Source: an uncultured Verrucomicrobiota bacterium (GTDB lineage: Bacteria > Verrucomicrobiota > Verrucomicrobiia > Limisphaerales > JAJXZI01). From it: a stretch of DNA of 36,657 bases. Location of the stretch: the NCBI GenBank assembly GCA_903847485.1, contig CAINDV010000905.1, positions 1-36,657 of the forward strand, in the 5' to 3' direction. Positions 5,813-36,657 of the stretch are shown in pieces. Position numbers and translations under genes: made by a program. How positions within the stretch are numbered: the first letter of the stretch is position 1; each line of letters starts with the position of its first letter. The notes beneath the pieces are model-generated. The model saw only the letters and a list, made by a program, of their open reading frames with translations, was not told where the DNA came from and did not search any database.

Positions 5813-7111
5813 TCATACTCGGAGTGTCGGTGTTGTTAGGTTGTTGTTAGTCGTTTCGGCACTAATCAGCGCGCCGACTCTAACCGGAAAAACCGGCGAT
5901 CGCACAGAAACATTTTCCCAGCCAAACAGGAACTGCGCGGCGGCACCGCAGGTGCGGCCCTGGCAGGTGCCCATGCCGCAGCGGGTGTGCAGCTTCGCGG
6001 CGCGCCAGTTGGCGAAACCTTCGATCGTGTCGCGCCGGACATCCTCACAGCGGCAAACGACTGTGTCCGGCGTAGTGAGTTGGCGCAACTCGGGGCGCAG
6101 GCAAAAGGCTTTACTAAGCGCCGCCCGAAAACTATGCCAGCCAGCGCGGTGGCTGAAAAGCGCGCGCGACTCTCCGGTCAGGCCAGCGGCGGTCAGTCCA
6201 GCAATCTGGCCTTCGACCAAGGCGCACTCGGCACCGCCAATACCGGTAGGTTCACCGGCGCATAAGACATCGGCCACCGTCGTCTCTTGAAACTCGTTCA
6301 CGCTGACTGCGCCTGCGCTTAGTGCGCAGCCTACTAAGAGCGGTAACTCGACATTCGGCACTAAGTGGAAACCGCAGGCGAAGTAATCGCAGTCTTCGGT
6401 CCAGGTGCGCGTGCCGTCGGTCAGAGTCACTTGCTGCACGCGCCCGGTGCCTTCCGCCTTCACCGGCCAGCAACCGCAGCGATACGGCACGCCGAGCAAC
6501 CTACTCTTCACCCCAACGCCTTGACACAGCTTGCTGGGATGGCGCCAGAGACCGAGGCCAAAGCGCATGACTTTAGCCAGCGGAGTCTGTTCCACAACTA
6601 AGGACACTTGCGCGCCGTGTTGCTTCAAGCGGTCGGCCACAGCCAGTAACAAGGGGCCTGTGCCTGCAACCACCACCCGCTTGCCGGCGACGGGCCAACC
6701 GGCCTTGGACATGGCGTGCAGGCCGCCCGGTCCCAGCACACCAGGTAGTGTCCAGCCGGGAAACGGAAGGAACAGTTCCCGCGCGCCAGTAGCGAGAATG
6801 AGTTTCTGCCAGGTAAGTTCCAAGACTCCCGACGGCGTCTCCGCCAGCAGACGGCGCGGTGCTGGAGCCGCGAAAGCCGTGGCGTTGGCGAAGACTTGCG
6901 CACCGGACTTCCTAAGTCTTTGTAGCCAGCGCTGCGCCGCCGCTGACGTCGGCTGCGCCTGTTCGCCGCGCCAGATTTGGCCGCCGAGCCACGGAGCGTT
7001 ATCGAGCACCGCCACCTTCTTGCCTGCTTCCGCCGCTGCACAGGCAGCCGCCATGCCCGCCGGGCCGGCCCCGACGACAAGGATTTCAAACTGGTGTTGC
7101 TGGCTATTCAT
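5813..7111 (-). CDS. D-hydroxyproline dehydrogenase, FAD/NAD(P)-binding subunit with C-terminal Fe-S region
   Basis: The 432-residue product belongs to the HcnB/opine-oxidase-A-like flavoprotein subunits. The FAD site is VVGAGPAGMAAACAAAEAG (12-30), with a second dinucleotide site VVVAGTGPLLLAVADRL (about 145-161). The C-terminal part has CRCEDV followed by CGMGTCQGRTCG, a BFD-like [2Fe-2S] region. In heteromeric D-hydroxyproline dehydrogenases this subunit accepts electrons from the DAO-like subunit. Its ATG overlaps the stop of the 2Fe-2S gene by 8 bp and it ends the operon. The last ten residues (ETTNNNLTTPTLRV) are an Asn/Thr-rich tail encoded by a short repeat. Opine or other D-amino-acid oxidation is the alternative; the epimerase in the operon favours hydroxyproline. 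Confidence 0.85.
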   Translation of the reverse strand: MNSQQHQFEILVVGAGPAGMAAACAAAEAGKKVAVLDNAPWLGGQIWRGEQAQPTSAAAQRWLQRLRKSGAQVFANATAFAAPAPRRLLAETPSGVLELTWQKLILATGARELFLPFPGWTLPGVLGPGGLHAMSKAGWPVAGKRVVVAGTGPLLLAVADRLKQHGAQVSLVVEQTPLAKVMRFGLGLWRHPSKLCQGVGVKSRLLGVPYRCGCWPVKAEGTGRVQQVTLTDGTRTWTEDCDYFACGFHLVPNVELPLLVGCALSAGAVSVNEFQETTVADVLCAGEPTGIGGAECALVEGQIAGLTAAGLTGESRALFSHRAGWHSFRAALSKAFCLRPELRQLTTPDTVVCRCEDVRRDTIEGFANWRAAKLHTRCGMGTCQGRTCGAAAQFLFGWENVSVRSPVFPVRVGALISAETTNNNLTTPTLRV

Positions 7112-7352
7112 CGGTGCGCACCTCCAAGCCTTCCTCGCACAGTGTCAGACAACTGCGGCTATGCGGCTGGCCATTGATGGTTACTCGGCACTCGAAGCAG
7201 ACACCCATGCCGCACAGCGGGCCGCGTGATTCGCCGTGAAGGGAACTGCGGAAGCGTGCTGCTCCCGACTCTACCACCGCCGCCGCGACGATCGTCCCGG
7301 CTGGCACGCTTATCGGCTTACCGTTGACCGAGATAGTAACGCGCTTAGTCAT
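7104..7352 (-). CDS. D-hydroxyproline dehydrogenase, small (2Fe-2S) ferredoxin-like subunit
   Basis: The product is 82 residues from the ATG at 7352 ([19 protein letters not shown]). It has the beta-grasp start of 2Fe-2S subunits and the cysteine set GPLCGMGVCFECRVTING...SC. This is the HcnA/SoxA-type small subunit that carries electrons between the two flavoprotein subunits. It overlaps the upstream DAO-like gene and the downstream FAD gene by 8 bp each, so all three are translationally coupled. A longer frame from 7397 exists, but the extra 15 residues lie inside the preceding gene and are not needed. Confidence 0.85.
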   Translation of the reverse strand: MTKRVTISVNGKPISVPAGTIVAAAVVESGAARFRSSLHGESRGPLCGMGVCFECRVTINGQPHSRSCLTLCEEGLEVRTDE

Positions 7353-8478
7353 GCTGGGCGGCTCCTTTCGCGAGTCGAGCGGGCAAGTAAGGCTCACTTG
7401 CTATCTCCGAAGACCTCCTAAGTAGCCGGTCGGCCAGCAGTCTGCCCGTGGCCAGCGAGGTCGTGATGCCCAACCCTTCGTGGCCGGTGGCGAGCCATAT
7501 CTTATCACTGTCCAAGCTCGGCCCGATGAGGGGCAACTTATCGGGCGTTGCCGCCCGATGACCGGTCCAGCAACGAATAGCCGAGAGCCGGCCAAGAGTG
7601 GGCAGATACTCGCACGCCCGGCGTAACATGCGGTCGAGGATAGGTTGGTTGATTTCCGTGCCCTCCGCATCAAACTGGCGCGAGGAGCCGATCAGCATCT
7701 GGCCAGTCTTGCGCGGTTGGATGTTGAAGGCCACTGAGTCCGCGGCGACCGCGTGGGCACTCTTGAGATAGCCTAGCTCGATGACTTGATGACGGACAAA
7801 GCCAGAGTAGCGGTCGGTAATAACCAGATGCCCCTTGCGCTTGCGCACCGGCAAACCGGGCGTGAGCGCCGGGGACCACGGGCCAGTCGCGTTCACCGCG
7901 ATGCCGGCGGCCAGCCGCGTGCCGTCGCCTAACACCGCGCCGCCGTCAGGCAATAACGACCGCACTTCCACGCCCGTCCGGACATCTGCGCCAGCAGCCT
8001 GGGCTTGCTTGAGGAGTAAGTCAGCGGCGGAAGGCGGATACAGTACCGCGTCGTCCACCACACACAAACCGCCCACTAAGTCGCGCCGGAGATTCGGCTC
8101 CGCTTGCGCCAGCGCGGGGCCGTCGAGCACTTCCACCTTTACGCCGCGTTCGCGATAGAACGCTTCCTTGCGCCGCACCTCGGCCATTTCCTGTTCATCC
8201 GTCGCTACCCACATCGTGCCGCACGGATCGAATTCCACGTCCGCCGGCAGTTGCGGCGCGAGTTGATGCCAGAGCCGGCGCGAATAGGAGGTCAGCGCGA
8301 ATTGCGCCGGCGAATCATCCATAACAACTAAGTGCCCCATGCCCGCCGCAGTGGTGCCGCCACCAATAGGACCACGGTCGAGCACGAGCACCTTCAAGCC
8401 GGCACGAGCGCATTCCGCCGCGCACGCCGCGCCGACGATGCCCGCGCCCACAATAAGTATGTCCGGCTTAGTGCTCAA
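7345..8478 (-). CDS. D-hydroxyproline dehydrogenase, DAO-family FAD catalytic subunit (TTG start)
   Basis: The 377-residue product has the Rossmann FAD motif [21 protein letters not shown] directly at the N-terminus, the NATGPWSP segment mid-protein and the C-terminal PLIGPS...[18 protein letters not shown] of DAO/sarcosine-oxidase-type enzymes. It would oxidise D-hydroxyproline (cis-4-hydroxy-D-proline) to pyrroline-4-hydroxy-2-carboxylate. No ATG fits: the first upstream ATG (8634) lies 52 codons deep inside the epimerase gene. A TTG at 8478 overlaps the epimerase TGA (TTGA, 8475-8478) and puts the FAD motif at residues 7-12, the normal place, so I choose it. This is strong evidence of translational coupling to the epimerase. 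Confidence 0.87.
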
Positions 8479-9413
8479 TGGCGAATACCCCAGCAGAACG
8501 GGTCTTGGTCGTCCAGCAGCAGCGTGGACTCGGCGTTGACATAGGCCGTCCCGGTGATAGTGGGAATAATCTGGTCGCCTTGGCGACGGAAGGTTCCCGC
8601 GAAGGTGCTGCCGATGATACTCTCCTGCACCCAAGTTTCACCCTCGGCAAGTTTCCCATCGGTGGCCAAGCACGCGAGCTTGGCGCTGGTGCCGGTGCCG
8701 CAGGGCGAGCGGTCGTAGGCCTTGCCGGGACACAGCACAAAGTTGCGCGAATGCGCACCGGGCACAGTCGGCGGCCCGAATAACTCGACGTGGTCCACCT
8801 CGGGAAAACCCTGCTCGTTCACGGCCTGCCTAACCCGCCAGCAGAAATCGGTAAGTACCTCCACGTTGGCGAGGCGCAGGTCACAGTCGCCTTTCTGCAC
8901 CAGATAGAACCAGTTGCCGCCCCACGCGACGTCGCCCGTCACCGCACCAAGTCCCGGCACCGCGACAGTGAATTCCTTTCGCGCGCGATAACTAGGAACA
9001 TTCGCCACGGAGACTTCGCCGGTCGGATGAAGCGTGGCGGTAACTACGCCCACGGAGGTTTCGAGGCGATGCTCGCCAGGTTGAAGGCGGCCCAGATGTG
9101 CCAGCGCCACGACTACTCCGATGGTTCCGTGACCACACATGCCGAGATAGCCGACGTTGTTGAAAAAGATAACGCCCGCGGCGCAGGACGGGTCCACCGG
9201 TTCGCAGAGAAGCGCCCCGACCATTACGTCGGATCCGCGTGGCTCGTTGACGACAGCGGAGCGGAACCGGTCGAACTCACGCTGGAAACGGTCGCGCCGT
9301 TCCGGCAACGGCCCCGATCCAAGATCAGGTCCGCCGGACGTGACGACGCGCGTAGGTTCGCCGCCAGTATGCGTGTCGATCACCGCGACACTATGGAATG
9401 ATGCTCGTTTCAT
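8475..9413 (-). CDS. 4-hydroxyproline 2-epimerase (proline racemase family)
   Basis: From the ATG at 9413 ([20 protein letters not shown]) the product is 312 residues. Upstream ATGs at 9425 and 9428 would add four or five residues. Both catalytic cysteines are present: GMCGHGTIG (C98 counted from 9428) and [10 protein letters not shown] (C243). This makes it a racemase/epimerase rather than a trans-3-hydroxyproline dehydratase, in which the first Cys is replaced. MCGHGTIG and WGGNWFYLV are the versions I associate with hydroxyproline epimerases rather than proline racemases. It converts trans-4-hydroxy-L-proline to cis-4-hydroxy-D-proline. It is first in the operon, divergent from the PAS-AraC regulator. 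Confidence 0.9.
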
Positions 9414-9501
9414 CAAGAACGACATCATACCCGACGGCCGCAGGAATGTCTTGTCCGCCAGCCCAGCGGCAACTTAGATTTCAGCACAAACAACGAACTA
9501 A
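9414..9501. promoter_or_regulatory. Divergent intergenic region between epimerase operon and AraC regulator
   Basis: This 88-bp gap must hold the promoters of both the minus-strand hydroxyproline operon and the plus-strand regulator. Such divergence usually means the regulator controls the neighbouring operon. I see no convincing -35/-10 pair; the only dyad is a weak CCGC-N7-GCGG around 9459-9473. The region is therefore identified by geometry, not by motif. Confidence 0.45.
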
Positions 9502-10248
9502 ATGATGACCATGGCAGTGTTACAGAAAGATTTGTTCACGCAATTGGACGCGCCGTTCACCGGCGAGGCGCTCTTCGATTGCCTGACCGACCTGACGTTC
9601 TTCATCAAGAACGTCCGGGGTGAATACGTGGTGGTGAACCGGGAGTTGGTGGCGCGTTGCGGGCGGCGCGAAAAGCGCGAGTTGATTGGCCGCCAGGCCG
9701 ACGAGGTATTTCCGTCGCCGCTAGGCCGGAGTTATCGCGCCCAGGACGAGGCGCTGCTGAAGACCGGCGATCCGATTCTCAACCAGCTAGAGTTACAACT
9801 CTATCATTCCGGCCGCACCGGCTGGTGCCTGACTAACAAGCTGCCTTTGCGCGACCGCCAGGGCCGGGTGGTTGGATTGGTTGGCATCTCCAAGGACCTC
9901 CAGGCGCCTAACGAGCGCGGGGCCGATTACTCGCCGCTCGCGGCAGTCCTCCAACACATCCAGACTCATTTCGGAGAACCGCTGCGCATCGCCGACCTCG
10001 CGCGCCGCGCCGGACTGTCGCCCTACCAGTTCGACCACCGCATTCGGAGAATATTCCAAATCACCACCGGCCAGTTCCTCCAGAAAGTGCGGATGGACGC
10101 GGCGGTGCGGCAGTTACGTGAGTCACCGGACCCAATTGCGATGATTGCCCTGGACTGCGGTTACTCGGATCAAAGCGCCTTCACGCGCCAGTTCCGGCAG
10201 ACGGTCGGACTGTCGCCGAGTGAATTCCGTAGAACGACTGGCTCGTAG
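9502..10248 (+). CDS. PAS-domain AraC-family transcriptional regulator
   Basis: The 248-residue product has an N-terminal PAS/PAC fold (about 20-132: DLTFFIKNVRGEYVVVN through RVVGLVGISKDLQAP). A C-terminal AraC DNA-binding domain with two HTH motifs follows (about 145-247: RIADLARRAGLSPYQFDHRI, then IAMIALDCGYSDQSAFTRQF and VGLSPSEFR). PAS domains can bind small ligands or sense signals; here the obvious candidate is hydroxyproline or a pathway intermediate, but the sequence does not show this. It is divergent from the epimerase operon and convergent with the GH146-like fusion gene (12 bp apart). Three closely spaced ATGs exist (9502, 9505, 9511); I keep the first. Confidence 0.9.
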   Translation: MMTMAVLQKDLFTQLDAPFTGEALFDCLTDLTFFIKNVRGEYVVVNRELVARCGRREKRELIGRQADEVFPSPLGRSYRAQDEALLKTGDPILNQLELQLYHSGRTGWCLTNKLPLRDRQGRVVGLVGISKDLQAPNERGADYSPLAAVLQHIQTHFGEPLRIADLARRAGLSPYQFDHRIRRIFQITTGQFLQKVRMDAAVRQLRESPDPIAMIALDCGYSDQSAFTRQFRQTVGLSPSEFRRTTGS

Positions 10249-10260
10249 TCCAAACCAAGG

Positions 10261-13200
10261 TCACTGCGTGCGGATGACTCGTTGAAACAGCACCGGTGGG
10301 GTAAGTGACTGTCCGTCGGCCGGCGCGGCGTGAACTTTTCGGACGACCTCCATCCCCTGCACCACACGGCCAAAGGCAGCGAAGCCCTGGCCGTCGGGAT
10401 TCCTTTGGCTGCCAAAGTCGAGCGCCGGTTGCTCACCCACACAGATGAAGAAATGGTCCTGCGCACTATCAGGTCCGTCGCGGGCCATCGAGATAGTGCC
10501 GTCGAGATGCTTGATCCCGGTATCCCGTGTGCGCTCCAGCGAGATGGGCGGAAAGAACTCATTGGTCTTCGCTGGATTGGCGGAGGCTTGAATCACTTGG
10601 ATCTTCACCATGTTAGTGGGTTGGTTGCTAAGTGTGACCGTGCGATGAAAGCGACCATCGCTGTAAAACCCGGCCAAAGCGTAGCGCAGGAAGTTCTTAG
10701 TCGTGACAGGCGCGCTCTTCGCGTCGAGTTCCACTTCGATGTCTCCTAACGCGGTCTGGATCAGCACGCGGGGCTTAGGGGTAAGTGCCGCCTCGCGCCA
10801 GACGAAGCGAGGCGCCTTGGCGGGGTCGAAACCAGCAAGATGCGCCCGACCGGCGGGGTCGCGCTGGGCCGGCTTGTGATAGCGCCAGGAGCGGTTGCCG
10901 AAGACTTCGGCGCAGAGTTCGGCCAGCGCCGGATCGTATTCCTTCAACTCCGCCCGCGTATTTACATGGTTGTGCAGCGAGTCGTTCTCACGGTTGTTAT
11001 CGAACCAGTCCTGCACACCCTCGGCCCAATACTCCATGCGATCCGAACCCGCATAGGTGCTTTTCCAAAGGCCGCGTGCCGTCGCGCTGTCGAAGGCCGC
11101 TTGAAGCCGCTTATCAAAAGTCGGGTCGAGCTGACTCAATCCCATCTCATGGATGGCGTGGGCGAACTCGTGAATAAGGATGTTCTCGGTGGCATACGGA
11201 TCGCCGGAGAAACCAAGGAGATTCTCCTCCGCACCACTAACCGCCGGCCGCTCGCTGGAGGCACCCAGCCCGCGCGCCCGCCGGTCCCAAAAGACCTTCG
11301 AGGTGAGATCGGAGTGCTCCGGGATGTCCGTCGTGAATTCATTCCACGCCATCACGGCCAGGCGGACATTGTTGGTCGCCAAAGCATGAAGAATGTCCTC
11401 CCGCCCAGGAAGCATCTGGCGGACAATCCACGCGGCCTCCAGCAAGGCGAAGTCGGATAAGTTAGTCGAGCCGACCACCGGCAGGCCCCCGACCTCGAGA
11501 TACCTCTGGTAGAAGGGTGATAGTTTGAAGCGCTCGCGCACAGCGGCCGGCACGGGTTGGACGGTATCGGCGGCAGAGCTTTGCCGGTTGGGGGCAGCCT
11601 CAGTTCGAATCATGCGGACGCCAAAGACCGCACCAACCTCGTTGCCCCTGGTGGCTTGGAACTTCACCGTCACTTTCTGCTTGCCCTTCACGAGTTCAGC
11701 AGGCACCGGATACTCAACTTCGAAGAAGCGCATGGGGCCGCGGCGCTCGATGGTTTGTTCGCCGACGCGCGTGCCGTCCACCAGTATCTCAAAGGTGCGC
11801 TCCTGCCACTCATCGTGGTTGTAAGTTACCACCAGCGCCAGCAGTTGCTTCGGATCTACGGGTAGGTCAAAGGAAAACCACTTAGTGCCCCGGCGACCCG
11901 GTCGGCTCTGGATGCGGATAGGTTCGGTGTCCTCGCCCTGCATGTTAGCATCGCGCTCGGCCTGCATCTCGCCGGGCTGGGCATAGCCGACGGTGGCGGC
12001 TTCTAGCTGACGCTGCTTCTCGCGCTCGGCCGCCAGTTCGGTGGAGTGTTGCGTCCACTCCGCCGGTGTAAATAGATCCCAATACACCGCGTAAGTGCGC
12101 CGGTGGAGCCGGTAGAAGGGCACGAAGTCAACGTCGCGTTCCTTGCCCACGCCCTCGGTACGGAAGCTACCGGGCTTGTCGGCCACCGGCTTCAGCCAGT
12201 CAGCCACGGGCCGATCGGCGGCCACAAACACCGGCACTGCGTCGGCCCGCGAACCACGCCGCCCCTCCTCCGGCCCCAGATCACCCGCCAGCACCAACGG
12301 TCCCCATAAGATGGCCACACGGCGCGGGTTATCCGGCAGCGGCTCCAACCGAAGCGTCTTGGGCAAAGTGACGGTAATTTGGTCGCCAGTCTTCCACGTG
12401 CGCTTGAGTTCAACGAACGAACTGGTCTTAGGCATCAGAGCCGAGACACCACGGCGGCCCGCCGGTCCCGCGCGGGAAGTAACTAGTAACTCCGGTGCCA
12501 CAGCCAAGCCATTGATGCTCACAGAAAAGCCCGCACCAACCCAGTAAGGACGACGCAGAGCAAGAGTGAACTCCTTGGGTGTCGTGACTGTAAGTTTGAT
12601 TGTAGCGGACTCGCCTTCGGGGAAGTCGGTTTCCATCGCCAGCTTCACGCCGGCAGCCGGCCAGTCCGCAGTCGAAGGCGCGTAGAGACTTACCCATAAC
12701 TTGTCTCCAGATTCGTAATAAAGGCCGTCACCGTGGAGGGCGTGGCTTTCCATGCTGGAACCGACGCAGCAGGTGAAGCCGCCGTCGAGCATGTTGCGTT
12801 CGTATTCGTGCTGCACGCCGCGGCCCACCGGGACCATGTAACAGGCCCAACCTGCCTGCGGATCCAATGAGGCGAGGATATGGTTGAACAGTGCCCGCTC
12901 GTGAAAGTCGGCATAGTGCGCGTCCGGCCTGAGGGCAAACATTGAGCGCGTCATCTTAAGCATGTTATAGACGTTGCAGGTCTCGGCAGTGCGGCCGTCC
13001 ACACGGTCGTTCAACCTATCCGGCTCACCGAAATACTCGTCCTTGCCGTGTCCGCCGGTGGCGTAGCTGTGATGGTCCACGACGCGATCCCAGAAGAAGG
13101 CCGCGGCGAAGCCGTCGCCGGGATCCCCGACGTAGCCGAAGCGCGCCAGCGAACCGAGCATCTTCGGCACCTGGGTGTTGCCGTGTTTGCCGGCAAGGTT

Positions 13201-14058
13201 GTCTTGTTGGCGCTTGAGCGGCTCGGTGAAGGCGTGGTGCTCGAACTTATAGGAGAGGTCGAGCCAGCGCTTGTCGCCCGTGTCGGCGTAGAGGTCGGCG
13301 AAGACTTCGTTCATACCTCCAAACTCCGTGTTCAACATCCGCTGCACCTGAGCGTCGTCGAGCTTGGACAGGATACCCCCGGCCCAGGTGGCGTATTTGA
13401 TTTCGAGTTCCAGCGCAGCGCGATTGCCGGTGTAGCGATAGGCATCGCGCAGCCCGGCATAGGTTTTATGAAGCACATACCACGGCGACCACAGGCCGTT
13501 CAGATCGAAGCCGCCGGACCGAATGTTACCCTGCGCGACTTCCGCGAAGCGTTCCTTACCATTCGCCAACGCACCAAGATAGCCGTCGCCGTTCTTATCC
13601 TGAACCTCCTTCAACTCCTTGACCAGATAGTCCGCCCGTTCCTTGAAGCGCGGATCACCGGTCGCCGCCCACATCAGACTGACAGCAGAGAGATAGTGAC
13701 CGCCGATGTGGCCGGTAAGTTGTTTTCCTTCGACTGAGTCCCAACCGCCGTAGCCCTTGGCTTTCGGCTCCAGGCCCGCGCGCAGGCGGTAGCCCGCCAA
13801 CATGCGGTCCGGCTCAAGCGCGAGCAGATACTTCGCATCCAGGTCTTGCGCGTTCTTGAGCGGTCCGCCAGTAAGACGCACAGCCGACAGCGGCAGTGGG
13901 CGGGCGGCGTTCGGAATGACCGGAGTGATCGGCGGCGCGGCCTCGAGGGTTCCCTGCCCGAGCAGGGGAACGGCTACGGCAAACAGGGTCAGGAGCTTGC
14001 AGCGGGAATGGGTGACGTTCATACGCAGTGGGGTCATGTGAAGTGAAGGGGCGGTCAT
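10261..14058 (-). CDS. Three-part secreted fusion: GH146-like beta-L-arabinofuranosidase, HEFxH metallopeptidase-like, cyclophilin-type PPIase
   Basis: The product is 1265 residues. After a signal peptide (best from M13, 14022) comes a DUF1680 catalytic domain (about 50-660). It keeps the zinc-thiolate set: AETC (E359, C361) and FTCCVG (C430, C431, one being the nucleophile of the family). A beta-sandwich follows (about 715-820, ending AVFGVRMIRTE). Residues about 840-1065 form a metallopeptidase-like domain with LIHEFAHAIH (H963, E964, H967), Y1002 in TYAGS and E1009 in MEYWAE. Residues about 1097-1265 are a cyclophilin-type prolyl isomerase (RFHRT, HFFICVG, AFGRVVQGMEVV). I infer that arabinose removal, peptide cleavage and proline isomerisation act on one substrate. 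All domains look intact. It is last in the minus-strand gene series, 17 bp after the frameshifted peptidase gene. Confidence 0.88.
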   Translation of the reverse strand: MTAPSLHMTPLRMNVTHSRCKLLTLFAVAVPLLGQGTLEAAPPITPVIPNAARPLPLSAVRLTGGPLKNAQDLDAKYLLALEPDRMLAGYRLRAGLEPKAKGYGGWDSVEGKQLTGHIGGHYLSAVSLMWAATGDPRFKERADYLVKELKEVQDKNGDGYLGALANGKERFAEVAQGNIRSGGFDLNGLWSPWYVLHKTYAGLRDAYRYTGNRAALELEIKYATWAGGILSKLDDAQVQRMLNTEFGGMNEVFADLYADTGDKRWLDLSYKFEHHAFTEPLKRQQDNLAGKHGNTQVPKMLGSLARFGYVGDPGDGFAAAFFWDRVVDHHSYATGGHGKDEYFGEPDRLNDRVDGRTAETCNVYNMLKMTRSMFALRPDAHYADFHERALFNHILASLDPQAGWACYMVPVGRGVQHEYERNMLDGGFTCCVGSSMESHALHGDGLYYESGDKLWVSLYAPSTADWPAAGVKLAMETDFPEGESATIKLTVTTPKEFTLALRRPYWVGAGFSVSINGLAVAPELLVTSRAGPAGRRGVSALMPKTSSFVELKRTWKTGDQITVTLPKTLRLEPLPDNPRRVAILWGPLVLAGDLGPEEGRRGSRADAVPVFVAADRPVADWLKPVADKPGSFRTEGVGKERDVDFVPFYRLHRRTYAVYWDLFTPAEWTQHSTELAAEREKQRQLEAATVGYAQPGEMQAERDANMQGEDTEPIRIQSRPGRRGTKWFSFDLPVDPKQLLALVVTYNHDEWQERTFEILVDGTRVGEQTIERRGPMRFFEVEYPVPAELVKGKQKVTVKFQATRGNEVGAVFGVRMIRTEAAPNRQSSAADTVQPVPAAVRERFKLSPFYQRYLEVGGLPVVGSTNLSDFALLEAAWIVRQMLPGREDILHALATNNVRLAVMAWNEFTTDIPEHSDLTSKVFWDRRARGLGASSERPAVSGAEENLLGFSGDPYATENILIHEFAHAIHEMGLSQLDPTFDKRLQAAFDSATARGLWKSTYAGSDRMEYWAEGVQDWFDNNRENDSLHNHVNTRAELKEYDPALAELCAEVFGNRSWRYHKPAQRDPAGRAHLAGFDPAKAPRFVWREAALTPKPRVLIQTALGDIEVELDAKSAPVTTKNFLRYALAGFYSDGRFHRTVTLSNQPTNMVKIQVIQASANPAKTNEFFPPISLERTRDTGIKHLDGTISMARDGPDSAQDHFFICVGEQPALDFGSQRNPDGQGFAAFGRVVQGMEVVRKVHAAPADGQSLTPPVLFQRVIRTQ

Positions 14059-14075: not shown

Positions 14076-14580
14076 TTATTGCACGGCAGTTGGTTGATAT
14101 CTCCAGTCCACCTTGCCGCCATAGGCCATCGTTTCGTGGACGAGCGCGAAAAGATCGGGATCGTAGTCCCGTAGTGCTTCGCGGGTGTTAATAGGATGCA
14201 CCGCGTCGGGGGGCGCGGCGTCCTGGCCGGCCGCGTCGAAATAGGCGAGCACGCCTTCGGCCCAGTAAGCCACGCGGTCATGGACTGCGGCAGTTCCCTG
14301 CCACTTGCTGGCACTCATAGCCTTTTCGTAAGTCGCCTTGAGCCGCTCGTCGAACCGCAGGTCGAGCCGCTGGACGCGCAGTTCGTATTGCTGGACGTCG
14401 CGGCCACGCTTCTCCCAATCGGAATCCACCGGGCGCTTGCCGGTCACTTGGTAAAGCGCCTTGGCGAACACACGAATCACCTGGTTATCTCCGACGTTCG
14501 GGGCCCTGGGGTTGGCAAGCAGATTCTCCTCGCCGACAACGAGCAATTTAGTCTCGGGCGTGTAGTCCAGTGTGCGCGCA
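14076..14580 (-). pseudogene. Frameshifted 3' part of the tandem metallopeptidase-like gene (degenerate second domain)
   Basis: This frame continues the second domain of the 14477-15661 gene: LDYTPETKLL then VVGEENLLANP follows naturally after NPSLDALRA of the upstream frame. The shift lies around 14568-14580, in a GCGCGC run, and is explained by loss of one base. The only start codon for independent translation is a TTG at 14546, inside the domain. The second domain's active site is ruined: where sister domains have HEFAH this one reads IRVFAKAL. AYWAEGVLAYFD and the terminal WRYQP are kept. It was thus a pseudoenzyme before or after the frameshift, perhaps a binding domain. Sequencing error cannot be excluded. 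Confidence 0.65.
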
Positions 14581-15661
14581 GGGCATCTAAGCTTGGGTTC
14601 TCCCTCAGCAAAGCATACTCGGGTAAGTCGGCAATGCCTTCGTTTCGACCGAGCACGACCAATCTTATTCCGTCGGCCATGAGAGCCTTCAAAATATCGT
14701 GGCGGTAAGCGAATAGCTTGCGGATGGTGTCATTGGCTTTGATAAGAGCGGCGTCGCTGGCTCCACGGCCGAGGATGGTGAATTCGCGCGCCCAGGTGAA
14801 CTTAGTGTAATAGTGGTCCGCTTTGATTCTCGGCGGCGGCGGTATCACGTTGGGCAGCGCTTGCAGGAAGCGGTAACGCCAGTCCTGGCCCGGCTTCAGG
14901 TTGAAGGCCGTCCGCGCCAGTTCGTAGCCTTCTGGGTCGTACGCCTTGAGTTGCTCGCGTGTGCCAATGGGGCCGTGGTTCCAGTTGTTGACACGATTGC
15001 AGTCAAAATAGACCTGCGCGATCTCGGCCCAGTATTCGCCGGCGTTCGAGCCGGCATAGGTGTCCCGGAAGAGTTCCTTCTGGCGTGCATTCCGGTAGGC
15101 GCGGTTCTTCCGCTCGTTCCACGTCGCATCCACCGACGCCAACGTGCTATCAATAGTGTGGCAAAACTCATGCACGGCGATGCTCTCGTCGTCGTAGCGG
15201 TCCAAGGGGAGACTAAGCAGATTCTCCTCGCCGAAGCTAGTCGGCCGGCCGCCGGTGCCGCGCACCCGTTCGTTCTGATAGGCTGGGTTAGGATGGCCTC
15301 GATGCTCAGGCATGTCGGTATAGACCTGATCCTTGCCGATTACGATGAGATACATCCGGTTCTTGACCATTGCCTCAATAACATCTGGCCGGCCCGCCAG
15401 CATGTGTGAGACGATTGAATGCGTGCGCTGCAACGCCAGATCCGCCACCTCGCCGGAGGCCACGGCCGGCATGCCTTGGACATCAATATGTTTCTTGTAG
15501 AACTGACGCGCAGCATCGCGGTCCCGCTCGCTAACCATGGCGAAGAATGACTCGGGTGGCGTGGTCACCGGCGGGCTGTCTGCACCAGCAGCGCTTGGAG
15601 GCTGGACACCTCCGGCGAGCGCGACGGCCGCCAGGATCATGGAGGATAACAGTAGCTTCAT
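14477..15661 (-). CDS. Secreted HEFxH metallopeptidase-like protein, first domain intact, frameshifted at the 3' end
   Basis: Of the 394 codons, about 362 are genuine before a frameshift. A signal peptide (MKLLLSSMILAAVALAGG) precedes a metallopeptidase-like domain (about 50-265). It contains GEENLL, VHEFCHTID (H164, E165, H168), Y202 in TYAGSNAGEYWAE, E209 and a terminal WRYR. HExxH plus the downstream Glu indicates a gluzincin zinc peptidase. The distances H168-Y202 (34) and H168-E209 (41) are close to those I remember for Pro-Pro endopeptidases of the anthrax-lethal-factor-like fold (32 and 39). A second copy begins at about 295, and the frame then shifts, so residues 364-394 are out-of-frame noise. 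The start is 5 bp from the S9 peptidase stop, so it is probably cotranscribed. Confidence 0.75.
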   Translation of the reverse strand: MKLLLSSMILAAVALAGGVQPPSAAGADSPPVTTPPESFFAMVSERDRDAARQFYKKHIDVQGMPAVASGEVADLALQRTHSIVSHMLAGRPDVIEAMVKNRMYLIVIGKDQVYTDMPEHRGHPNPAYQNERVRGTGGRPTSFGEENLLSLPLDRYDDESIAVHEFCHTIDSTLASVDATWNERKNRAYRNARQKELFRDTYAGSNAGEYWAEIAQVYFDCNRVNNWNHGPIGTREQLKAYDPEGYELARTAFNLKPGQDWRYRFLQALPNVIPPPPRIKADHYYTKFTWAREFTILGRGASDAALIKANDTIRKLFAYRHDILKALMADGIRLVVLGRNEGIADLPEYALLRENPSLDALRAHWTTRPRLNCSLSARRICLPTPGPRTSEITR

Positions 15662-15666
15662 GGCTT

Positions 15667-18045
15667 TCAGTTGGACGCAGCACTCTGGCCATTGCGATTG
15701 GGCGGCTCGACGCCGAGGAGATGCCGCACGAAGAAATCCTCCCGCCGGCGTGCCGCATAAGCGCCGCCGGAGCCGTGACCGCCACCCGGCACCACGAGGA
15801 AGTCAAAGTCCTTGTCCGCTTTGATAAGTGCGTCCACAAACCGGTAGGTGGATTCCGGCGGCACATTGTCGTCCATTTCGCCGACGATCAGGAACAGGTG
15901 CCCACGAAGGCGCTGGGCGTTGTCTATGTTAGAGTTCTCGGAGTATTGCGGTCCCACCGGATAGCCCATCCACTGCTCGTTCCAAGAGGCCTTGTCCATC
16001 CGGTTGTCATGACAGCCGCAGTTAGCGACCGCAGCCTTGTAGAACTCGGGATTAAACAGGACGGCCCCGGCGGCGTTTTGCGCGCCAGCGGACGTGCCAT
16101 AGGCTCCCACACGCGCCGTGTCCAGGTAAGGGTATTTCGCCGCGGCGGCTTTCATCCACAAAATACGGTCGGGGAACCCGGCATCCTTGAGGTTGTGCCA
16201 GCAGACATCATGAAACGCCTTGGACCGATGGGCGGTGCCCATGCCGTCTATCTTCACCACGACGAACCCAAGCCGGTTCAGCGATTCGTAGCGCGGGCCA
16301 GGGCTGAATGACTTGGGCGTATAGGCGCTCTGCGGGCCGGCGTAAATCTCTTCGATAAGAGGATACTTCTTGCTTGGCTCCACGTTGCGCGGCCGACATA
16401 TAAGACCCCAGATGTCCGTCTGGCCGTCCCGACCCTTGGCCACAAACACCTCCGGCGGCTCCCACCCACTGGCCTTGAGTTCGGTGATGTCAGCCTCTTC
16501 AAGTGCGCAGACCAACTTACCGTCCAAGACACGACGCAGTTCGTTCACCGGCGCCCGGTCCACGCGGCTGTAAGTGTCAATAAGGTATCGCCGATCCGGT
16601 GAGTAACGGATGGCGTGGGTGCCATTTCCGGCAGTCAGGAATACCAGACCGCTGCCGTCGAAGTTCACGCGACCGTAATGAATAAGATAGGGATCTTGGT
16701 TCGGATAGACCCCGCTGGCGTGAAACCAGACCAGCCGGTTCGTCTCATCAATGAGGTCAATGCCCCGCACCACCCAATCGCCCGTGGTGATCGGATTCTT
16801 CAGCTTGCCGGCCGCTACATCCACCAGGTAGAGATGCCGCCAGCCATTGCGCTCGGACGCGTGGATCATTTCGTCGGTCTGCTCCAGCCAGGTGACCGGA
16901 CTCAACTTCAGATCCTCGGTGTGGGCGGTCCAGATGAAGGTCTTGGTTTGCTCATCAATCAGGTTGCGGACCTGGCCGGTGTGGGTATCCACCGCCACCA
17001 CCCGGAAACGCTGATGCCCGCGGTCCTCCTGTTCGTAAGCGAAGCGAAAACCGTCCTGACTCCAATGCAGTTGCGGACTTAACCATTCGTGCTCGAACCG
17101 GTCCGCCACCGGTTTGCTCTGCTTGCGACCCGCAATCTCGAACAGGTTCACTTCATAGGTGGTGAACTTGTCGCCGGGAAGCGGATAGGGACGGCTCTGC
17201 AACTTGGCCCGGCCGCCCCCGGGAGGCGAGGACTGCACCAGATAGACTTCCTTGCGCTCGCCCGGTTCGATGCGGAACGCGACGAGCGACTTTGAGTCCG
17301 GTGCCCAGGAAAGCGCACCATACGAAAGGCCTTCCTTGCCATCGTGACTAAGTTGGATCTCCGGGGTCGCGTCGTCGCCCGCCCGGATGAAGACGTTGTG
17401 ATCTTTGATAAACGCCCTCCATTGCCCGTCCGGAGAGCGCTCGGAGCTTTCGCGCGAGCGTCGGCCGCGGCCCGGTCGGCGCGGTCCGCCAACACTCGCG
17501 CTACTCTCCGCTTCGGCGCCAGTTGTGGCAGAGGCCTTTGCATCGGTCTTGGAACATTCATAAGTGGTCAGATCACATTTCCAAGCTGTCCCAACCACGG
17601 TGAAGCTAACTGCCTTGGCCTCGTCAATAAACTCAATGCTGTCGAATGGAAGCTTGTCGGCGGGATAGTCGGCACCGGCAGCTTTGGCAAGGGCGGCGGC
17701 CAGCTTCGCATGATCGAACGCAGGTTCACGAACGCCGCGCTCCGCATCCACCAGAATGAACTCTTTCGCGCCAGCCGGGAGGGCGTTGAGATACCAGAAG
17801 CGTGTGTTGCCAGCGAACCAGTTCGGCGTGACGCGGTCCTTGAACACGCGCGCATCACCCGCGCTCCGCCCCGGCCTGCGCTGGGGCGATTCCTGACTGG
17901 CCGCGCTTAAATCCAAGCTTAGGCCGGACAGTAAGGCGAAGAGGATCACCCAAGTGTGCAGCCAACTCAAATGGGCCGCGAGTGAAAAGAAACCCCGCGC
18001 CGGAGTTGCGGCGTTCAGACGGTTATTCGTCAGGCTGGTAATCAT
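15667..18045 (-). CDS. S9 family peptidase (DPP IV / prolyl-oligopeptidase-like)
   Basis: The 792-residue product has an N-terminal hydrophobic segment (about 28-49), so it is exported or anchored. An N-terminal DPP IV-type beta-propeller (about 200-500) and a C-terminal alpha/beta-hydrolase follow. The triad is S652 in GAYGTSAGAQ, D725 in GEMDDNVPP and H757 in GGGHGSGG. The serine motif is GTSAG instead of the WSYGG of classical DPP IV. I cannot place the double-Glu motif that anchors free N-termini, so exo- versus endo-activity is open. Family members usually cleave after proline, which fits a Pro/Hyp-rich substrate. A low-complexity Arg/Ser/Gly insertion sits at about 165-205. It lies 24 bp after the DUF1680 gene and 5 bp before the metallopeptidase gene. 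Confidence 0.87.
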   Translation of the reverse strand: MITSLTNNRLNAATPARGFFSLAAHLSWLHTWVILFALLSGLSLDLSAASQESPQRRPGRSAGDARVFKDRVTPNWFAGNTRFWYLNALPAGAKEFILVDAERGVREPAFDHAKLAAALAKAAGADYPADKLPFDSIEFIDEAKAVSFTVVGTAWKCDLTTYECSKTDAKASATTGAEAESSASVGGPRRPGRGRRSRESSERSPDGQWRAFIKDHNVFIRAGDDATPEIQLSHDGKEGLSYGALSWAPDSKSLVAFRIEPGERKEVYLVQSSPPGGGRAKLQSRPYPLPGDKFTTYEVNLFEIAGRKQSKPVADRFEHEWLSPQLHWSQDGFRFAYEQEDRGHQRFRVVAVDTHTGQVRNLIDEQTKTFIWTAHTEDLKLSPVTWLEQTDEMIHASERNGWRHLYLVDVAAGKLKNPITTGDWVVRGIDLIDETNRLVWFHASGVYPNQDPYLIHYGRVNFDGSGLVFLTAGNGTHAIRYSPDRRYLIDTYSRVDRAPVNELRRVLDGKLVCALEEADITELKASGWEPPEVFVAKGRDGQTDIWGLICRPRNVEPSKKYPLIEEIYAGPQSAYTPKSFSPGPRYESLNRLGFVVVKIDGMGTAHRSKAFHDVCWHNLKDAGFPDRILWMKAAAAKYPYLDTARVGAYGTSAGAQNAAGAVLFNPEFYKAAVANCGCHDNRMDKASWNEQWMGYPVGPQYSENSNIDNAQRLRGHLFLIVGEMDDNVPPESTYRFVDALIKADKDFDFLVVPGGGHGSGGAYAARRREDFFVRHLLGVEPPNRNGQSAASN

Positions 18046-18069: not shown

Positions 18070-20904
18070 TCACTCATCTTTAATCCAAACCATTGAGTTA
18101 GCCCCGTCGCGACGGGAGCGAGCACCCGGTAAGCGGTTCCCGCCAGCGGGAGCATTGGTGGAAGCCACAGTATTGGTAGCCGTAGCCACAGAGTTAATGG
18201 AGGTGCCGCCAGCGTAGTTGATGGTAGGATCTCCCCCCGCCTCCGGCCGCAGGAGGCGGACAGTCTCGGATAGGCGATTCTGTCGGGCGAAGTAAGGGAT
18301 GGCCAGCATCGGGCTGCCGTCAGCCCAGGTGCCTTTGATCACCCTCACGCCTTGCAGCAGGTCACCACGCCATTCGGAGTCCAGCGGTGCCTTGGTAAGA
18401 ACCTGGTTAAGGTCTGGTTGGTCCGCGCGCTCAACACTGTAGAGCAAAGGACCGTAGCGGAGGGCCACCCGGCCGCGATCCGCTTCGATTCTTTCGTCGG
18501 CCTTGACGCGCTGGACCGCCAACGGCAGCACTAACTCAACGGTGTCGCCCGGCTCCCACTTTCGGGTAATCGCCGCGTAGCCCTTCTCCACCTTGGGGGA
18601 AATCCGCCGGCCGTTGACTGTGAACGACGCCTGGCCCTCGACGCGAGGCAGGTTGGTGTAGAGGTCGCTGGTCTTTCGGTTCGGAATGCGGACGAAGAGC
18701 GAAAACTCTTTCGCCTGCTTCGGATTCACGGTGATCGCCACCTTGCCGTTCCAGGGGTAATCCGTCCTTTGCACCATCTCGACATCGGTGCCCGCGACGT
18801 TCTCCACTTTGATAGTGCTGCCGATGAAGAGATTCACATAAAGGCCCTCCTTGCCTTTCACATAGGTCCAGGTCGGGATCATCAGCAAAGTGCGCGGGAT
18901 GTTACCCACGCAGCACGGACAGCCGTGCCAGGCGGTGCGCTGGCCATCTATGAGCGGATTGGTGTAGTTGAAGATCGTGCCCTCCAGATCAGTGGCACCC
19001 AGGAGCGCATTATACATCGTCTCCTCATAGAGGTCGGCGTACTTCGCGTCGTGATAGGCGAGATTGAGCTTGTATTGGAAGAAGATCAGGCCGCAGCTCG
19101 AACAGGACTCGCAGTAAGCCTGGTTGCGGAGCGAATAGTTCGGGCCAAACCCCTCGGAGGATTCGCCGCTGCCCACGCCGCCGGTCACATAGTACTTCTT
19201 GTTGACGAGATTGTCCCAGAGCGACAGGACAGCGCTCTGGTAGTCCAGGTCGCCAGTCTCGGCGGCGACATCGGCCATGCCGGAGTAGTTATAGACCGCG
19301 CGAACCGCATGACCGACGGCTTCGTATTGCTGCTGCACCGGCACATGACTCTGGTCATACTCGCTGCCATCGCGACGGGAATCGAGAAGGAACTTGGCCA
19401 GCTTGATGTAGGCGTCGCCGCGACCATTGCCTTCCATGTCATTGACGAACCGCCCAAAGCGCACCAGAGCCTGCTCCATCTCCTGATGACCGTCATACCA
19501 GTCCTTCTTGCCCGGACCCAAGTTGGCCGCCCAGCAATCGGCGAGCTTCTTGGCGGCGTCATAGAGACGCCGGTCTTTGCCATTGGTCAAGGTATAGTGA
19601 TTGATGGCCGATTCGATGAAGTAACCGGCAACGTAGCCTTCATGATCGCCGCGGTGCGAAGGCGACCAGCGCTCCGGCCAGCGGCTCCGGCCGGCCAGCG
19701 TGTAGGCCGTCTGGAGATAGCCGTCCGGCTCCTGGGCGGAGAGAATCTTGGGAATCCAGTCTTCCAAGGTCGCCTTCATTTTCTCCTGGGCCTTGAGAAT
19801 GTCGGTGTCGCCGCGTGCGTCCACCATGAGTGCGATGCACATGGACTCGACCGTCTGATGCACCCAGGCGTTGGCGAAAACATAACCCTTGTGCCCTCCG
19901 TGCGATTCGCCTTTAAGGGCCTTGGCGGCTTCGATGAAGTTGTCAATGCCGCCCTGGCCCTGGGTCAGGTCAGTCCGGTTGTTCTGGTCAATGCAATGCG
20001 GAATCCAGCGGACGATGAGCGCCTTGGCCCGTGCGTTCCAGAGTGGGCTGTCAATCGTGTAAGGCTTGGTATAGATCACGTCGAGGCGCTCGGCTGGCGG
20101 CGGCAGTTCTACCTGGACACTTAGCTTCGCAGAGGCACCTAGCAGGCCGCGTCCTGCGCTGAGTTGCAAGATGTAACTTCCTACCTTCGAGAAAGTGGCA
20201 GTCGTGCTCGGTGAATTGGCGTCTGCGAAGGTCACCTGGCCCGGCCCAGATGCCATGCTCCACCGCAAGTCATCCGTGGCACCGCCCTTCAACCTTTTCA
20301 CTTGGCCGGATAAGTAGGTTTTCCCGCCCAATACCACCATGCGGTCGCCACCGGCAGTTACGGACGGCGGGAACTCCGGTGAGTTGCCGGAATCATAGAC
20401 CTTCCACTCAAGCACACCGGTGGAGAACTGAGCATCGCCGTCCATTTCGAGGCGGAGCTTGGCGGTGCGGACTTCATCGAAAGTGGTGGTATTGAATTGA
20501 TCGCCCGCCACGCCCAAGCCGGAGACATTGGGAACCGGGACAAACTCCACCCCGTTCCAGTACCGCACCCGGCAGGCCTTGGGCAGACGCACGCCCTGGC
20601 GGTCATCCCACCAATAGACTTCGATTCGTTTGGTACTAATGGGCTGGCTCCAGTCATATTGGACCCACTGGGTGCCTGTGCGCGGCCAGTTACCGTAGGA
20701 ACCCGGTTCGCGCTGGCGGGAGTTACGCGGATTAGTGTCGTCGTTGAGCGCGGCAAGTGAGGTGTCGCCCGATACGAACGAACCGGAGGGAGTGGCCACC
20801 AAGGCCAGATTCGCCGCGGGTTCGGCAGCGGCAAGCAGCAGGCATGGGTTGGCAGCAACCCAGACAACGGTTGAGGCGAGGCAAAGGATAGATCGCATAA
20901 TCAA
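18070..20904 (-). CDS. GH127-like beta-L-arabinofuranosidase with F5/8-type C and Ig-like N-terminal domains
   Basis: The 944-residue product has a signal peptide (to about 27), a discoidin/F5-8-like carbohydrate-binding domain (about 30-172), an Ig/PKD-like linker domain (about 180-266) and a DUF1680 catalytic domain (about 275-850). The zinc-thiolate site is complete: YCESC (E599, C601) and CPCCVGN (C664, C665). YVTGGVGSGESSEGF just before it should hold the acid/base Glu (E581 or E584). The alpha/alpha-barrel start is of the HypBA1-like GH127 type, known to release beta-linked L-arabinofuranose from Hyp-arabinosides. The C-terminus carries a Thr/Asn/Ala-rich tail (about 895-925). It is about two-thirds identical over the core to its upstream neighbour, so the pair is a tandem duplication. 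Confidence 0.9.
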   Translation of the reverse strand: MIMRSILCLASTVVWVAANPCLLLAAAEPAANLALVATPSGSFVSGDTSLAALNDDTNPRNSRQREPGSYGNWPRTGTQWVQYDWSQPISTKRIEVYWWDDRQGVRLPKACRVRYWNGVEFVPVPNVSGLGVAGDQFNTTTFDEVRTAKLRLEMDGDAQFSTGVLEWKVYDSGNSPEFPPSVTAGGDRMVVLGGKTYLSGQVKRLKGGATDDLRWSMASGPGQVTFADANSPSTTATFSKVGSYILQLSAGRGLLGASAKLSVQVELPPPAERLDVIYTKPYTIDSPLWNARAKALIVRWIPHCIDQNNRTDLTQGQGGIDNFIEAAKALKGESHGGHKGYVFANAWVHQTVESMCIALMVDARGDTDILKAQEKMKATLEDWIPKILSAQEPDGYLQTAYTLAGRSRWPERWSPSHRGDHEGYVAGYFIESAINHYTLTNGKDRRLYDAAKKLADCWAANLGPGKKDWYDGHQEMEQALVRFGRFVNDMEGNGRGDAYIKLAKFLLDSRRDGSEYDQSHVPVQQQYEAVGHAVRAVYNYSGMADVAAETGDLDYQSAVLSLWDNLVNKKYYVTGGVGSGESSEGFGPNYSLRNQAYCESCSSCGLIFFQYKLNLAYHDAKYADLYEETMYNALLGATDLEGTIFNYTNPLIDGQRTAWHGCPCCVGNIPRTLLMIPTWTYVKGKEGLYVNLFIGSTIKVENVAGTDVEMVQRTDYPWNGKVAITVNPKQAKEFSLFVRIPNRKTSDLYTNLPRVEGQASFTVNGRRISPKVEKGYAAITRKWEPGDTVELVLPLAVQRVKADERIEADRGRVALRYGPLLYSVERADQPDLNQVLTKAPLDSEWRGDLLQGVRVIKGTWADGSPMLAIPYFARQNRLSETVRLLRPEAGGDPTINYAGGTSINSVATATNTVASTNAPAGGNRLPGARSRRDGANSMVWIKDE

Positions 20905-23611: not shown

Positions 23612-23612
23612 A

Positions 23613-24497
23613 TTATATGTTAGTTTCAATTGGTTTCGCGGCGCGGCCTGGGTCAGCAGGTTCCATCCGTCCGCTGTAAAGGTCATCCAGCAATGCCAGG
23701 GCTTCCGGGTCGTAAGCTTGGAGGCCGTCGCGACCATTGGCGGGCTGGGTGCCCTTCATGCTCCGATCGCCGTGCGTGCCGAAATACCACATCGTCAACT
23801 CGGCAAAGAACTCGTCGAGGTTGGAGCCGGCATAGGAACCAACCCAGAGGCCGCGAGCGAGCGAACGGCGATACTGCTCGCGGACCTTCTCCCGCACCGT
23901 GCGCGACACGCCGTGATCGAGGACGTTGTGCGCGAATTCGTGGACACAAATGTCACGGCCCCGGTAGCTATCCTTCTCCAACTTGAGCAGGTTCTCCTCG
24001 CCGCAGGAAGTCAGCAGGCCACCCATGCCGCGAGTCCGCTGATCGCGTGTAAGTCCGTGGTACTCGGCGAGCGGTTTGCCTTTGTCACGCCGCCATTCCG
24101 GGAGATCGGTGGTAACCTGATCGCGGCCGATGATGTGTAACTCAGCCCCGGCGGAGTGGAGTTTAGCCCGCACACTCGGCTGATTGCTGAGCATCATGGA
24201 AAGACGGTCGCGCGCGGCCCAGAGAGCCTCGTCCACGACGTTAGTGGGCGCTTTGATGGCAATGCCCGTGTAATCAAGGCGCTTGGCGAAGAAGCCGCTT
24301 TCCGGCGGGTCAATGGCGGTAATGGCGGGGCGGGGAGCATTGACCGGCTGGTCTGCTTGCGCGAACGAACGCAGACCTGCGGCCGTGAACCAGACGAGCA
24401 GCGCCAAGAGGAGCGCACACTCCACTCTCCACGCAAGCCTTCGAGCTTCAGGCTCCGAACTCACTTCGGACTTCGAATTTCGGACTTCGGACTTCAT
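23613..24497 (-). CDS. Secreted single-domain HEFxH metallopeptidase-like protein
   Basis: The 294-residue product has a membrane/signal segment at about 27-46 (ECALLLALLVWFTAAGLRS) and one metallopeptidase domain. The motifs are TSCGEENLL, VHEFAHNVLDHG (H186, E187, H190), SYAGSNLDEFFAE (Y222, E229) and a final LQAYDPEALALLDDLYSG. The distances H190-Y222 (32) and H190-E229 (39) equal those I recall for Pro-Pro endopeptidase 1. The first 15 residues (MKSEVRNSKSEVSSEPE) come from a GAAGTCCGAA-type low-complexity repeat, so a GTG near codon 25 is a possible true start. However, the ATG at 24497 overlaps an upstream relic's stop (ATGA), favouring the long form. It is coupled by one base to the following GH127 gene. 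Confidence 0.8.
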   Translation of the reverse strand: MKSEVRNSKSEVSSEPEARRLAWRVECALLLALLVWFTAAGLRSFAQADQPVNAPRPAITAIDPPESGFFAKRLDYTGIAIKAPTNVVDEALWAARDRLSMMLSNQPSVRAKLHSAGAELHIIGRDQVTTDLPEWRRDKGKPLAEYHGLTRDQRTRGMGGLLTSCGEENLLKLEKDSYRGRDICVHEFAHNVLDHGVSRTVREKVREQYRRSLARGLWVGSYAGSNLDEFFAELTMWYFGTHGDRSMKGTQPANGRDGLQAYDPEALALLDDLYSGRMEPADPGRAAKPIETNI

Positions 24498-36534: not shown

Positions 36535-36555
36535 AGTTAAAGATGTCAAGTTCTT

Positions 36556-36657
36556 AGAGCGTGTATGAAAACGCCCGGCGTGGTAGGGCTCGGCTCCTGC
36601 CGAGCCGCCCGGTAGGAATATTGCCGCTGTCGCTGAGGCTCGGCAGGAGCCTCGCCC
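36556..36657. repeat. Repeat cluster at right edge: GAGCGTGT half-element and GGCTCGGC palindromes
   Basis: AGAGCGTGTATGAAAACGCC (36556-36575) resembles the ends of the palindrome at 24954. Next comes a perfect hairpin GGCTCGGC-TCCT-GCCGAGCC (36587-36606), then GAGGCTC-GGCAG-GAGCCTC (36635-36653). GGCTCCTGCCGAGCC at 36592-36606 is also the exact complement of 36637-36651. No gene is visible after 36534. The promoter of the GH51 unit must lie here or further right, but I cannot point to it. Confidence 0.6.

Follow-up and report, generated by a model that had tools for sequence, protein, structure and literature searches.

An uncultured bacterium of the phylum Verrucomicrobiota carries, on a single polypeptide chain, a predicted signal peptide followed by a GH146 glycosidase, a zinc peptidase and a cyclophilin. 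The gene for this fusion protein lies on the minus strand of a 36,657-nucleotide stretch of DNA (contig CAINDV010000905.1 of GenBank assembly GCA_903847485.1; here called the window, meaning the whole stretch that was analysed), where it runs from position 14058 down to 10261 as one frame of 1265 amino acids plus a stop codon. We consider that it probably specifies a secreted three-enzyme protein that digests arabinosylated hydroxyproline-rich glycoproteins of the extensin type, from plants or green algae. A sequence-only reading of the window had placed a single three-part polypeptide at exactly these coordinates (10261..14058), and every residue that it cited is where it said: E359, C361, C430 and C431; H963, E964, H967 and E1009; RFHRT (1136) and HFFICVG (1202). 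Its author did not know the architecture from the literature, and our own literature search recovered no paper on a GH146–peptidase–cyclophilin architecture or on VHL–peptidase fusions. The fusion is a new combination of known enzyme kinds, behind which there is possibly a larger finding, a bacterial hydroxyproline-reading peptidase system.

Domain structure of the fusion protein

The chain opens with its sole predicted signal peptide, judged by eye (residues 1–41, ending ...CKLLTLFAVAVPLLGQGTLEAA; 13936..14058, minus strand, as for all parts of the gene). Then follows the sugar part, with a GH146/GH127-type catalytic domain at residues 59–442 (12733..13884; Pfam GH127 catalytic domain, 8.6e-111) and, over 11608..12699, Pfam matches to the GH127 middle domain (454–566, 1.3e-17), DUF4986 (606–660, slightly below the Pfam cut-off) and DUF6805 (684–817, 5.8e-20), which together make up the usual C-terminal half of GH146 proteins. 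The GH146 structure 5OPJ matched residues 57–817 at an E-value of 1.9e-136 and GH127 structures only at 1e-8 to 1e-20; a plain GH127 filing was rejected because GH146 is far closer. The earlier calls of arabinofuranosidase, zinc peptidase and cyclophilin stand, with the family of the first corrected from GH127 to GH146.

Residues 57–817 are thus predicted to form a complete GH146 beta-L-arabinofuranosidase. They share their domain order with Bacteroides 5OPJ/6YQH and Bifidobacterium Bll3HypBA1/Bll4HypBA1, and have in common with these enzymes the Glu-Cys-Cys-Cys zinc/nucleophile set (E359, C361, C430, C431, aligned with the ETC and CC of 5OPJ). E341, which aligns to a conserved Glu in GH146 structures, is a candidate acid/base residue. 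A bifidobacterial member of the family is active on plant hydroxyproline-linked arabinose. The known GH146 enzymes have no joined peptidase or cyclophilin, whereas the fusion has about 450 extra residues.

The first of the additional parts, the zinc peptidase domain (residues 836–1092; 10783..11553), matched no Pfam family above cut-off. It did not reach membership of Pfam ATLF/M90 (M90, 14.9 bits against a cut-off of 26.2), a threshold passed only by some distant members of its family or their second domains, and it was therefore placed by fold. Domain profiles searched against PDB gave matches that, taken alone, are borderline: a 25-member profile had lethal factor at the top (0.0014) and Pro-Pro endopeptidases (PPEPs) at 0.014–0.04, and a 15-member profile had PPEP-2 at the top (0.009). 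Structure prediction, which the earlier reading had proposed as a check, was more informative. As the structure search with a two-domain model was flooded by cyclophilins, the peptidase was modelled alone, with 25 relatives, and AlphaFold2 returned a model with pLDDT 94.6 and pTM 0.92. Foldseek ranked PPEP-3, PPEP-2 and lethal factor in that order, the top match being PPEP-3 with bound Ac-EPLPPPP-NH2 (E 4.2e-6, probability 1.00, TM 0.52/0.63).

Within the domain, HEFAH (residues 963–967; 11158..11172) would supply two zinc ligands, H963 and H967, and the catalytic Glu, E964, with Y1002 as the oxyanion Tyr and E1009 as the third zinc ligand (11032..11055); all five residues vary little or not at all among 25 diverse members of the family. 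The catalytic set of PPEP-3 comprises His153, Glu154, His157, Tyr190 and Glu197, and PPEP-1 has Tyr178 and Glu185 (PMC12828418), so that the Tyr-to-Glu spacing is seven in the fusion peptidase and in both of these enzymes. Given the modelled fold and the conserved HExxH, Tyr and Glu with this spacing, the domain is very likely a zinc peptidase of the Pro-Pro endopeptidase/M34-like (ATLF) clan. It shares fold, HExxH, Tyr, an equally spaced third Glu and secretion with PPEP-1, -2 and -3 and with anthrax lethal factor, but is only about 17% identical to the PPEPs and apparently lacks their S-loop aromatic residue. Its family also has an additional C-terminal region and fusion partners, and the known PPEPs cleave bacterial adhesins.

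The cyclophilin domain (residues 1093–1265; 10264..10782) is supported by both Pfam and fold: PF00160 matched residues 1098–1251 at 2e-27 (96.8 bits against a cut-off of 21.7) and Foldseek matched PpiA at 2.7e-13. Its nearest relative is the periplasmic PpiA of E. coli (1J2A/1CLH), with which it shares the fold, the catalytic Arg (RFHRT), Gln (VIQA) and Phe (HFFIC) and about 32% identity, but from which it differs in an insertion after RFHRT, a longer loop after LDFG and its tethering to a peptidase. The equivalents of Trp121 and His126 of human CypA are not kept.

The join between the GH146 and peptidase parts bears on whether the fusion is real. Stand-alone GH146 relatives terminate in ...GLRMIRADAER-stop, where the fusion protein reads ...GVRMIRTEAAPNRQSSAADTVQPVPAAVRERFKLSPFYQ, and secreted stand-alone peptidase–cyclophilins begin signal peptide...VGPVPPALRERFQLAPFYQ. 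In the fusion the GH146 sequence stops only a few residues from where it normally would (MIRTEAA against MIRADAER-stop), and about a dozen linker residues later the mature peptidase starts (VQPVPAAVRERF against VGPVPPALRERF); the linker (residues 822–835; 11554..11595) has no signal peptide. The join thus runs in frame from mature end to mature start, and a second signal peptide is absent.

That the junction is a fault of assembly or sequencing is suggested by the state of the metagenome-assembled genome (MAG), which totals 9.0 Mb in 1379 contigs and is 75.65% complete, by a frameshift in the gene immediately upstream and by the absence of the fusion from the other genomes searched. A lost stop codon or an indel would have retained the second signal peptide and intergenic DNA, neither of which is present, and a fusion created by a base error was rejected since the downstream gene's signal peptide and spacer are missing. 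Misassembly exactly at both mature ends, in frame, is improbable, and GC content is even over the parts of the gene (0.59–0.66). An artefact is accordingly, in our estimation, a very remote prospect.

The three-part arrangement itself was found in one genome only. No other GH146–peptidase fusion occurred in 320 genomes of the order, 384 genomes of the class and 80 named loci, nor was the three-part fusion found elsewhere among 169 redundant peptidase-family frames. GH146 and peptidase–cyclophilin are separate genes in all other genomes examined, which goes halfway towards the refuting evidence named in the earlier reading, homologues that are always separate. Two genomes (G040 and G318) have an operon of GH127, DPPIV, double peptidase and GH146 in the gene order of the window, with an unfused GH146 of 834 amino acids that in G040 is 75% identical to that of the fusion. 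In a third (G569), a 72% identical GH146 and a peptidase–cyclophilin lie on different contigs. The same genome encodes a 1353-residue GH146 with C-terminal BD-FAE-type (esterase-like) hydrolase and ThuA domains (L160, 484–4542).

The peptidase family and its partners in other genomes

Relatives of the peptidase were surveyed at 80 named loci drawn from GTDB genomes. Peptidase is followed by cyclophilin in one chain at 50 of the 80, mostly in proteins of 450–500 amino acids, from Verrucomicrobiota, Planctomycetota and one bin labelled Acidobacteria; frames with inspected starts begin like signal peptides, and those aligned are 44–71% identical to the window protein over the pair. This recurrence establishes the peptidase–cyclophilin junction as a widespread two-domain arrangement. 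The sequence-only reading had missed this common two-domain protein.

The family has other partners too. It is fused to DPPIV, in both domain orders, at eight loci (L039, L041, L043, L163, L164, L166, L167 and L172). Among glycosidase–peptidase fusions sought with the same queries, the only other was at L048 (5573–9037), where a peptidase of the type found third in the window is joined to a GH51 arabinofuranosidase in one frame of 1155 amino acids. Further partners include sulfatase, SASA esterase, amidohydrolase, DUF6797 and a fucosidase-like domain. At L094 (7318–11278), in a MAG of the Opitutaceae, a GH127 gene is separated by 55 bp from the peptidase–cyclophilin frame downstream of it, which we read as an independent pairing of the two predicted activities.

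Two of these arrangements are recorded here as separate observations. A fucosidase-like N-terminal region (PF01120, 9.5e-9) precedes peptidase–cyclophilin at L077 (8951–11281), in the bin labelled Acidobacteria. Sulfatase is fused to peptidase-family proteins at L165 (2247–7223) and L133 (1311–3347), the latter with a VHL domain in addition, which suggests sulfated substrates in some lineages.

At 14 of the 80 named loci, the cyclophilin is replaced by a VHL beta domain. All 14 sequences of the aligned set match PF01847, and a profile of the set matched human VHL at 3e-10. The hydroxyproline contacts of human VHL include Trp88, Tyr98, Ser111, His115 and Trp117 (PMC9528729). Across the 14 aligned domains the residues at the Trp88 and His115 positions never vary; Thr or Ser stands at 111, 12 domains have Trp at 117, and an aromatic residue is frequent at 98. 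Domains with these pocket residues occur at L035 (5199–5498), L114 (11862–14258, residues 115–193), L118, L127 and L172 (2190–6521, residues 733–816), and VHL domains are also present at L043, L045 and L173. In the former group the domain either follows the peptidase on its C-terminal side or lies within a DPPIV peptidase of a hydroxyproline operon, as at L114, L118 and L127. With filters off, none of 12 window proteins, its own DPPIV included, had a VHL (PF01847-type) match; the PF01847 domain and hydroxyproline pocket of metazoan pVHL are thus shared by relatives of the peptidase and not by the fusion protein, and the relatives' domains differ from pVHL in being bacterial and peptidase-fused.

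It is possible, from these alignments, that the bacterial VHL beta domain serves as a hydroxyproline-binding module; since certain VHL domains are located in sulfatases, the module could have further roles. That VHL and cyclophilin, both prolyl-reading, alternate beside the peptidase is good indirect evidence for substrates with Pro/Hyp chains.

The same interchange raises the alternative that one or both C-terminal domains of the fusion are non-catalytic chain binders, the cyclophilin being a prolyl-binding targeting module like the VHL of relatives. Degenerate cyclophilins beside an intact peptidase (L042, L101–L105 and L108) point the same way, as does the second domain of the window's double peptidase, which has no HExxH. 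The fusion itself retains a complete peptidase set and the catalytic Arg, Gln and Phe of its cyclophilin, and we regard binding without catalysis as distinctly unlikely.

Gene neighbourhood and links to hydroxyproline

The fusion gene closes a run of minus-strand genes separated by gaps of only −125 to +126 bp. In order of transcription, these specify a GH51-type arabinofuranosidase (34159–36657), a second, unfused GH146 (31761–34178), a GH5-like protein (30220–31764), an HZS-alpha-like protein (27718–30201), another GH51-type arabinofuranosidase (25037–27673), orf138, a third member of the peptidase family (23613..24497; 294 amino acids, with HEFAH and EFFAE), two GH127 beta-L-arabinofuranosidases (20933–23737 and 18070–20904), a DPPIV/prolyl oligopeptidase family peptidase (S9; 15667..18045), a double peptidase (14076..15661) and the fusion. 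The first domain of the double peptidase has HEFCH and EYWAE. Its gene reads as two overlapping frames (14477–15661 and 14076–14546; 394 and 156 amino acids), and relatives at L155 and L051 have a single frame of 561 amino acids, so we interpret the split as a frameshift, real or from sequencing. At L155 the second domain likewise has no HExxH. As an aside, the HZS-alpha-like protein, which matches the hydrazine synthase alpha middle domain (PF18582, 2.2e-19), sits within this arabinofuranosidase operon.

Adjoining the run is a predicted hydroxyproline catabolic operon (5813..9428, minus strand). It comprises a 4-hydroxyproline epimerase with both Cys kept (8475–9428; 425 bits to NF052296, slightly under the cut-off of 450), a DAO-type subunit (7345–8634), a 2Fe-2S (Fer2_4) small subunit (7104–7397) and an FAD/BFD subunit (5813–7111). 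The last three together resemble a three-subunit D-hydroxyproline dehydrogenase. A PAS-AraC regulator is divergent from the epimerase (9502..10248, plus strand).

This setting also bears on the idea that pectic or other arabinans are the substrate of the GH146 part and that the fusion is unrelated to hydroxyproline glycoproteins. The nearest solved relative, Bacteroides 5OPJ, and the operon's two GH51 arabinofuranosidases would fit such a role. The window yielded no pectinase domain but does contain a hydroxyproline epimerase, D-hydroxyproline dehydrogenase subunits and a DPPIV, and we hold a purely arabinan-directed role to be very improbable.

Association with hydroxyproline genes extends beyond the window. 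Within the order, 114 single-domain and 24 double-domain loci of the family were set against the listed matches to proline racemase/4-hydroxyproline epimerase; 93 were testable, being in genomes with an epimerase among the matches listed. At least 18 of the 93 lay within 15 kb of such a gene, where about 0.6 would be expected for a 5-Mb genome. Among the matches listed, linkage is therefore some 30 times chance, a ratio to be taken only as a guide, the genomes being related; the cases span many genera. Operons of peptidase, epimerase and DPPIV recur at L114, L118 and L127, with DAO in L114 and L127 and none detected in L118.

Proposed function and significance

We propose the following mechanism for arabinosylated hydroxyproline chains, in which deglycosylation, Pro/Hyp-directed cleavage and prolyl isomerisation would be combined. 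The operon's GH127 and GH51 enzymes would trim arabinan chains, and the GH146 domain would remove the final arabinose on hydroxyproline. The tethered zinc peptidase could then cut the bared Pro/Hyp-rich stretch internally, while the cyclophilin brought prolyl/hydroxyprolyl bonds in cis into the form on which the peptidase can act. DPPIV would next take off dipeptides, and the epimerase and D-hydroxyproline dehydrogenase would use the freed 4-hydroxyproline. We infer both this order of action and the benefit of tethering, which may be that one molecule works along a repeat sequentially.

The sugar side of the scheme resembles the HypBA1/HypBA2/HypAA system of Bifidobacterium longum, which strips beta-arabinooligosaccharides from hydroxyproline-rich glycoproteins. 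To our knowledge, no peptidase, isomerase or hydroxyproline catabolism has been described for that system. The title of the reference for Bll4HypBA1 calls this GH146 member the last enzyme removing oligoarabinofuranosides from hydroxyproline-rich glycoproteins (PMC10850190), a role that, as far as the title conveys it, fits the first step proposed here. The hydroxyproline-arabinosylated substrate named in the sequence-only reading gains independent support from the PPEP fold and catalytic set, from epimerase linkage and from the DPPIV and VHL fusions, the latter with their conserved hydroxyproline pocket.

Several points weigh against digestion of hydroxyproline-rich glycoproteins. Some 80% of the testable loci of the order have no nearby epimerase among the matches listed, and the peptidase–cyclophilin pair is present in marine planctomycetes, so the family does not depend on plant walls. 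The Bacteroides GH146 5OPJ stems from pectin utilisation, so that a GH146 alone is no proof of a hydroxyproline–arabinose substrate. The S-loop aromatic of the PPEPs (Trp103/Tyr113, which contacts the P3' proline) aligns, in a region where the alignment is weak, to the Ala of RRARG; as this residue is apparently lost, the sequence does not in itself point to Pro-Pro specificity. The three-part fusion is, moreover, known from a single fragmented MAG.

Some of these observations fit a different explanation, that the peptidase–cyclophilin half serves as an endopeptidase on proline-containing proteins in general, collagen-like and other Hyp/Pro-rich ones among them, and that its joining to GH146 is incidental and lineage-specific, serving mainly co-secretion. 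Marine and freshwater Planctomycetota and Verrucomicrobiota often have the pair with no arabinofuranosidases nearby, and the family is also fused to sulfatase, amidohydrolase, SASA esterase and a fucosidase-like domain. Its place within a GH127–DPPIV–GH146 operon, in the window and in G040 and G318, and its enrichment near hydroxyproline genes argue the other way, and we rate a general endopeptidase as unlikely, though it is the strongest of the competing explanations. Digestion of arabinosylated hydroxyproline-rich glycoproteins remains our preferred reading.

How the sugars of extensin-type glycoproteins are removed is known, while the literature searched names hardly any peptidases for the hydroxyproline backbone. 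The fusion protein offers a concrete candidate for such a peptidase, with a fold and catalytic residues, and the presence of three predicted activities on one chain makes their cooperation measurable. More broadly, and with a confidence that falls a little short of an even chance, Verrucomicrobiota, Planctomycetota and Poribacteria may possess an extracellular system devoted to hydroxyproline polypeptides. It would be built on a new Pro-Pro-endopeptidase-like family whose members would be partnered by a cyclophilin or by a hydroxyproline-binding domain of the VHL type, and joined to DPPIV, arabinofuranosidases and 4-hydroxyproline catabolism by fusion or gene linkage, with the window protein as its most complete single-chain form. 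In such a system the VHL hydroxyproline reader of animal oxygen sensing would also be a bacterial substrate-recognition module, and a bacterial VHL beta domain that reads hydroxyproline would, if true, be of interest far beyond carbohydrate enzymology.

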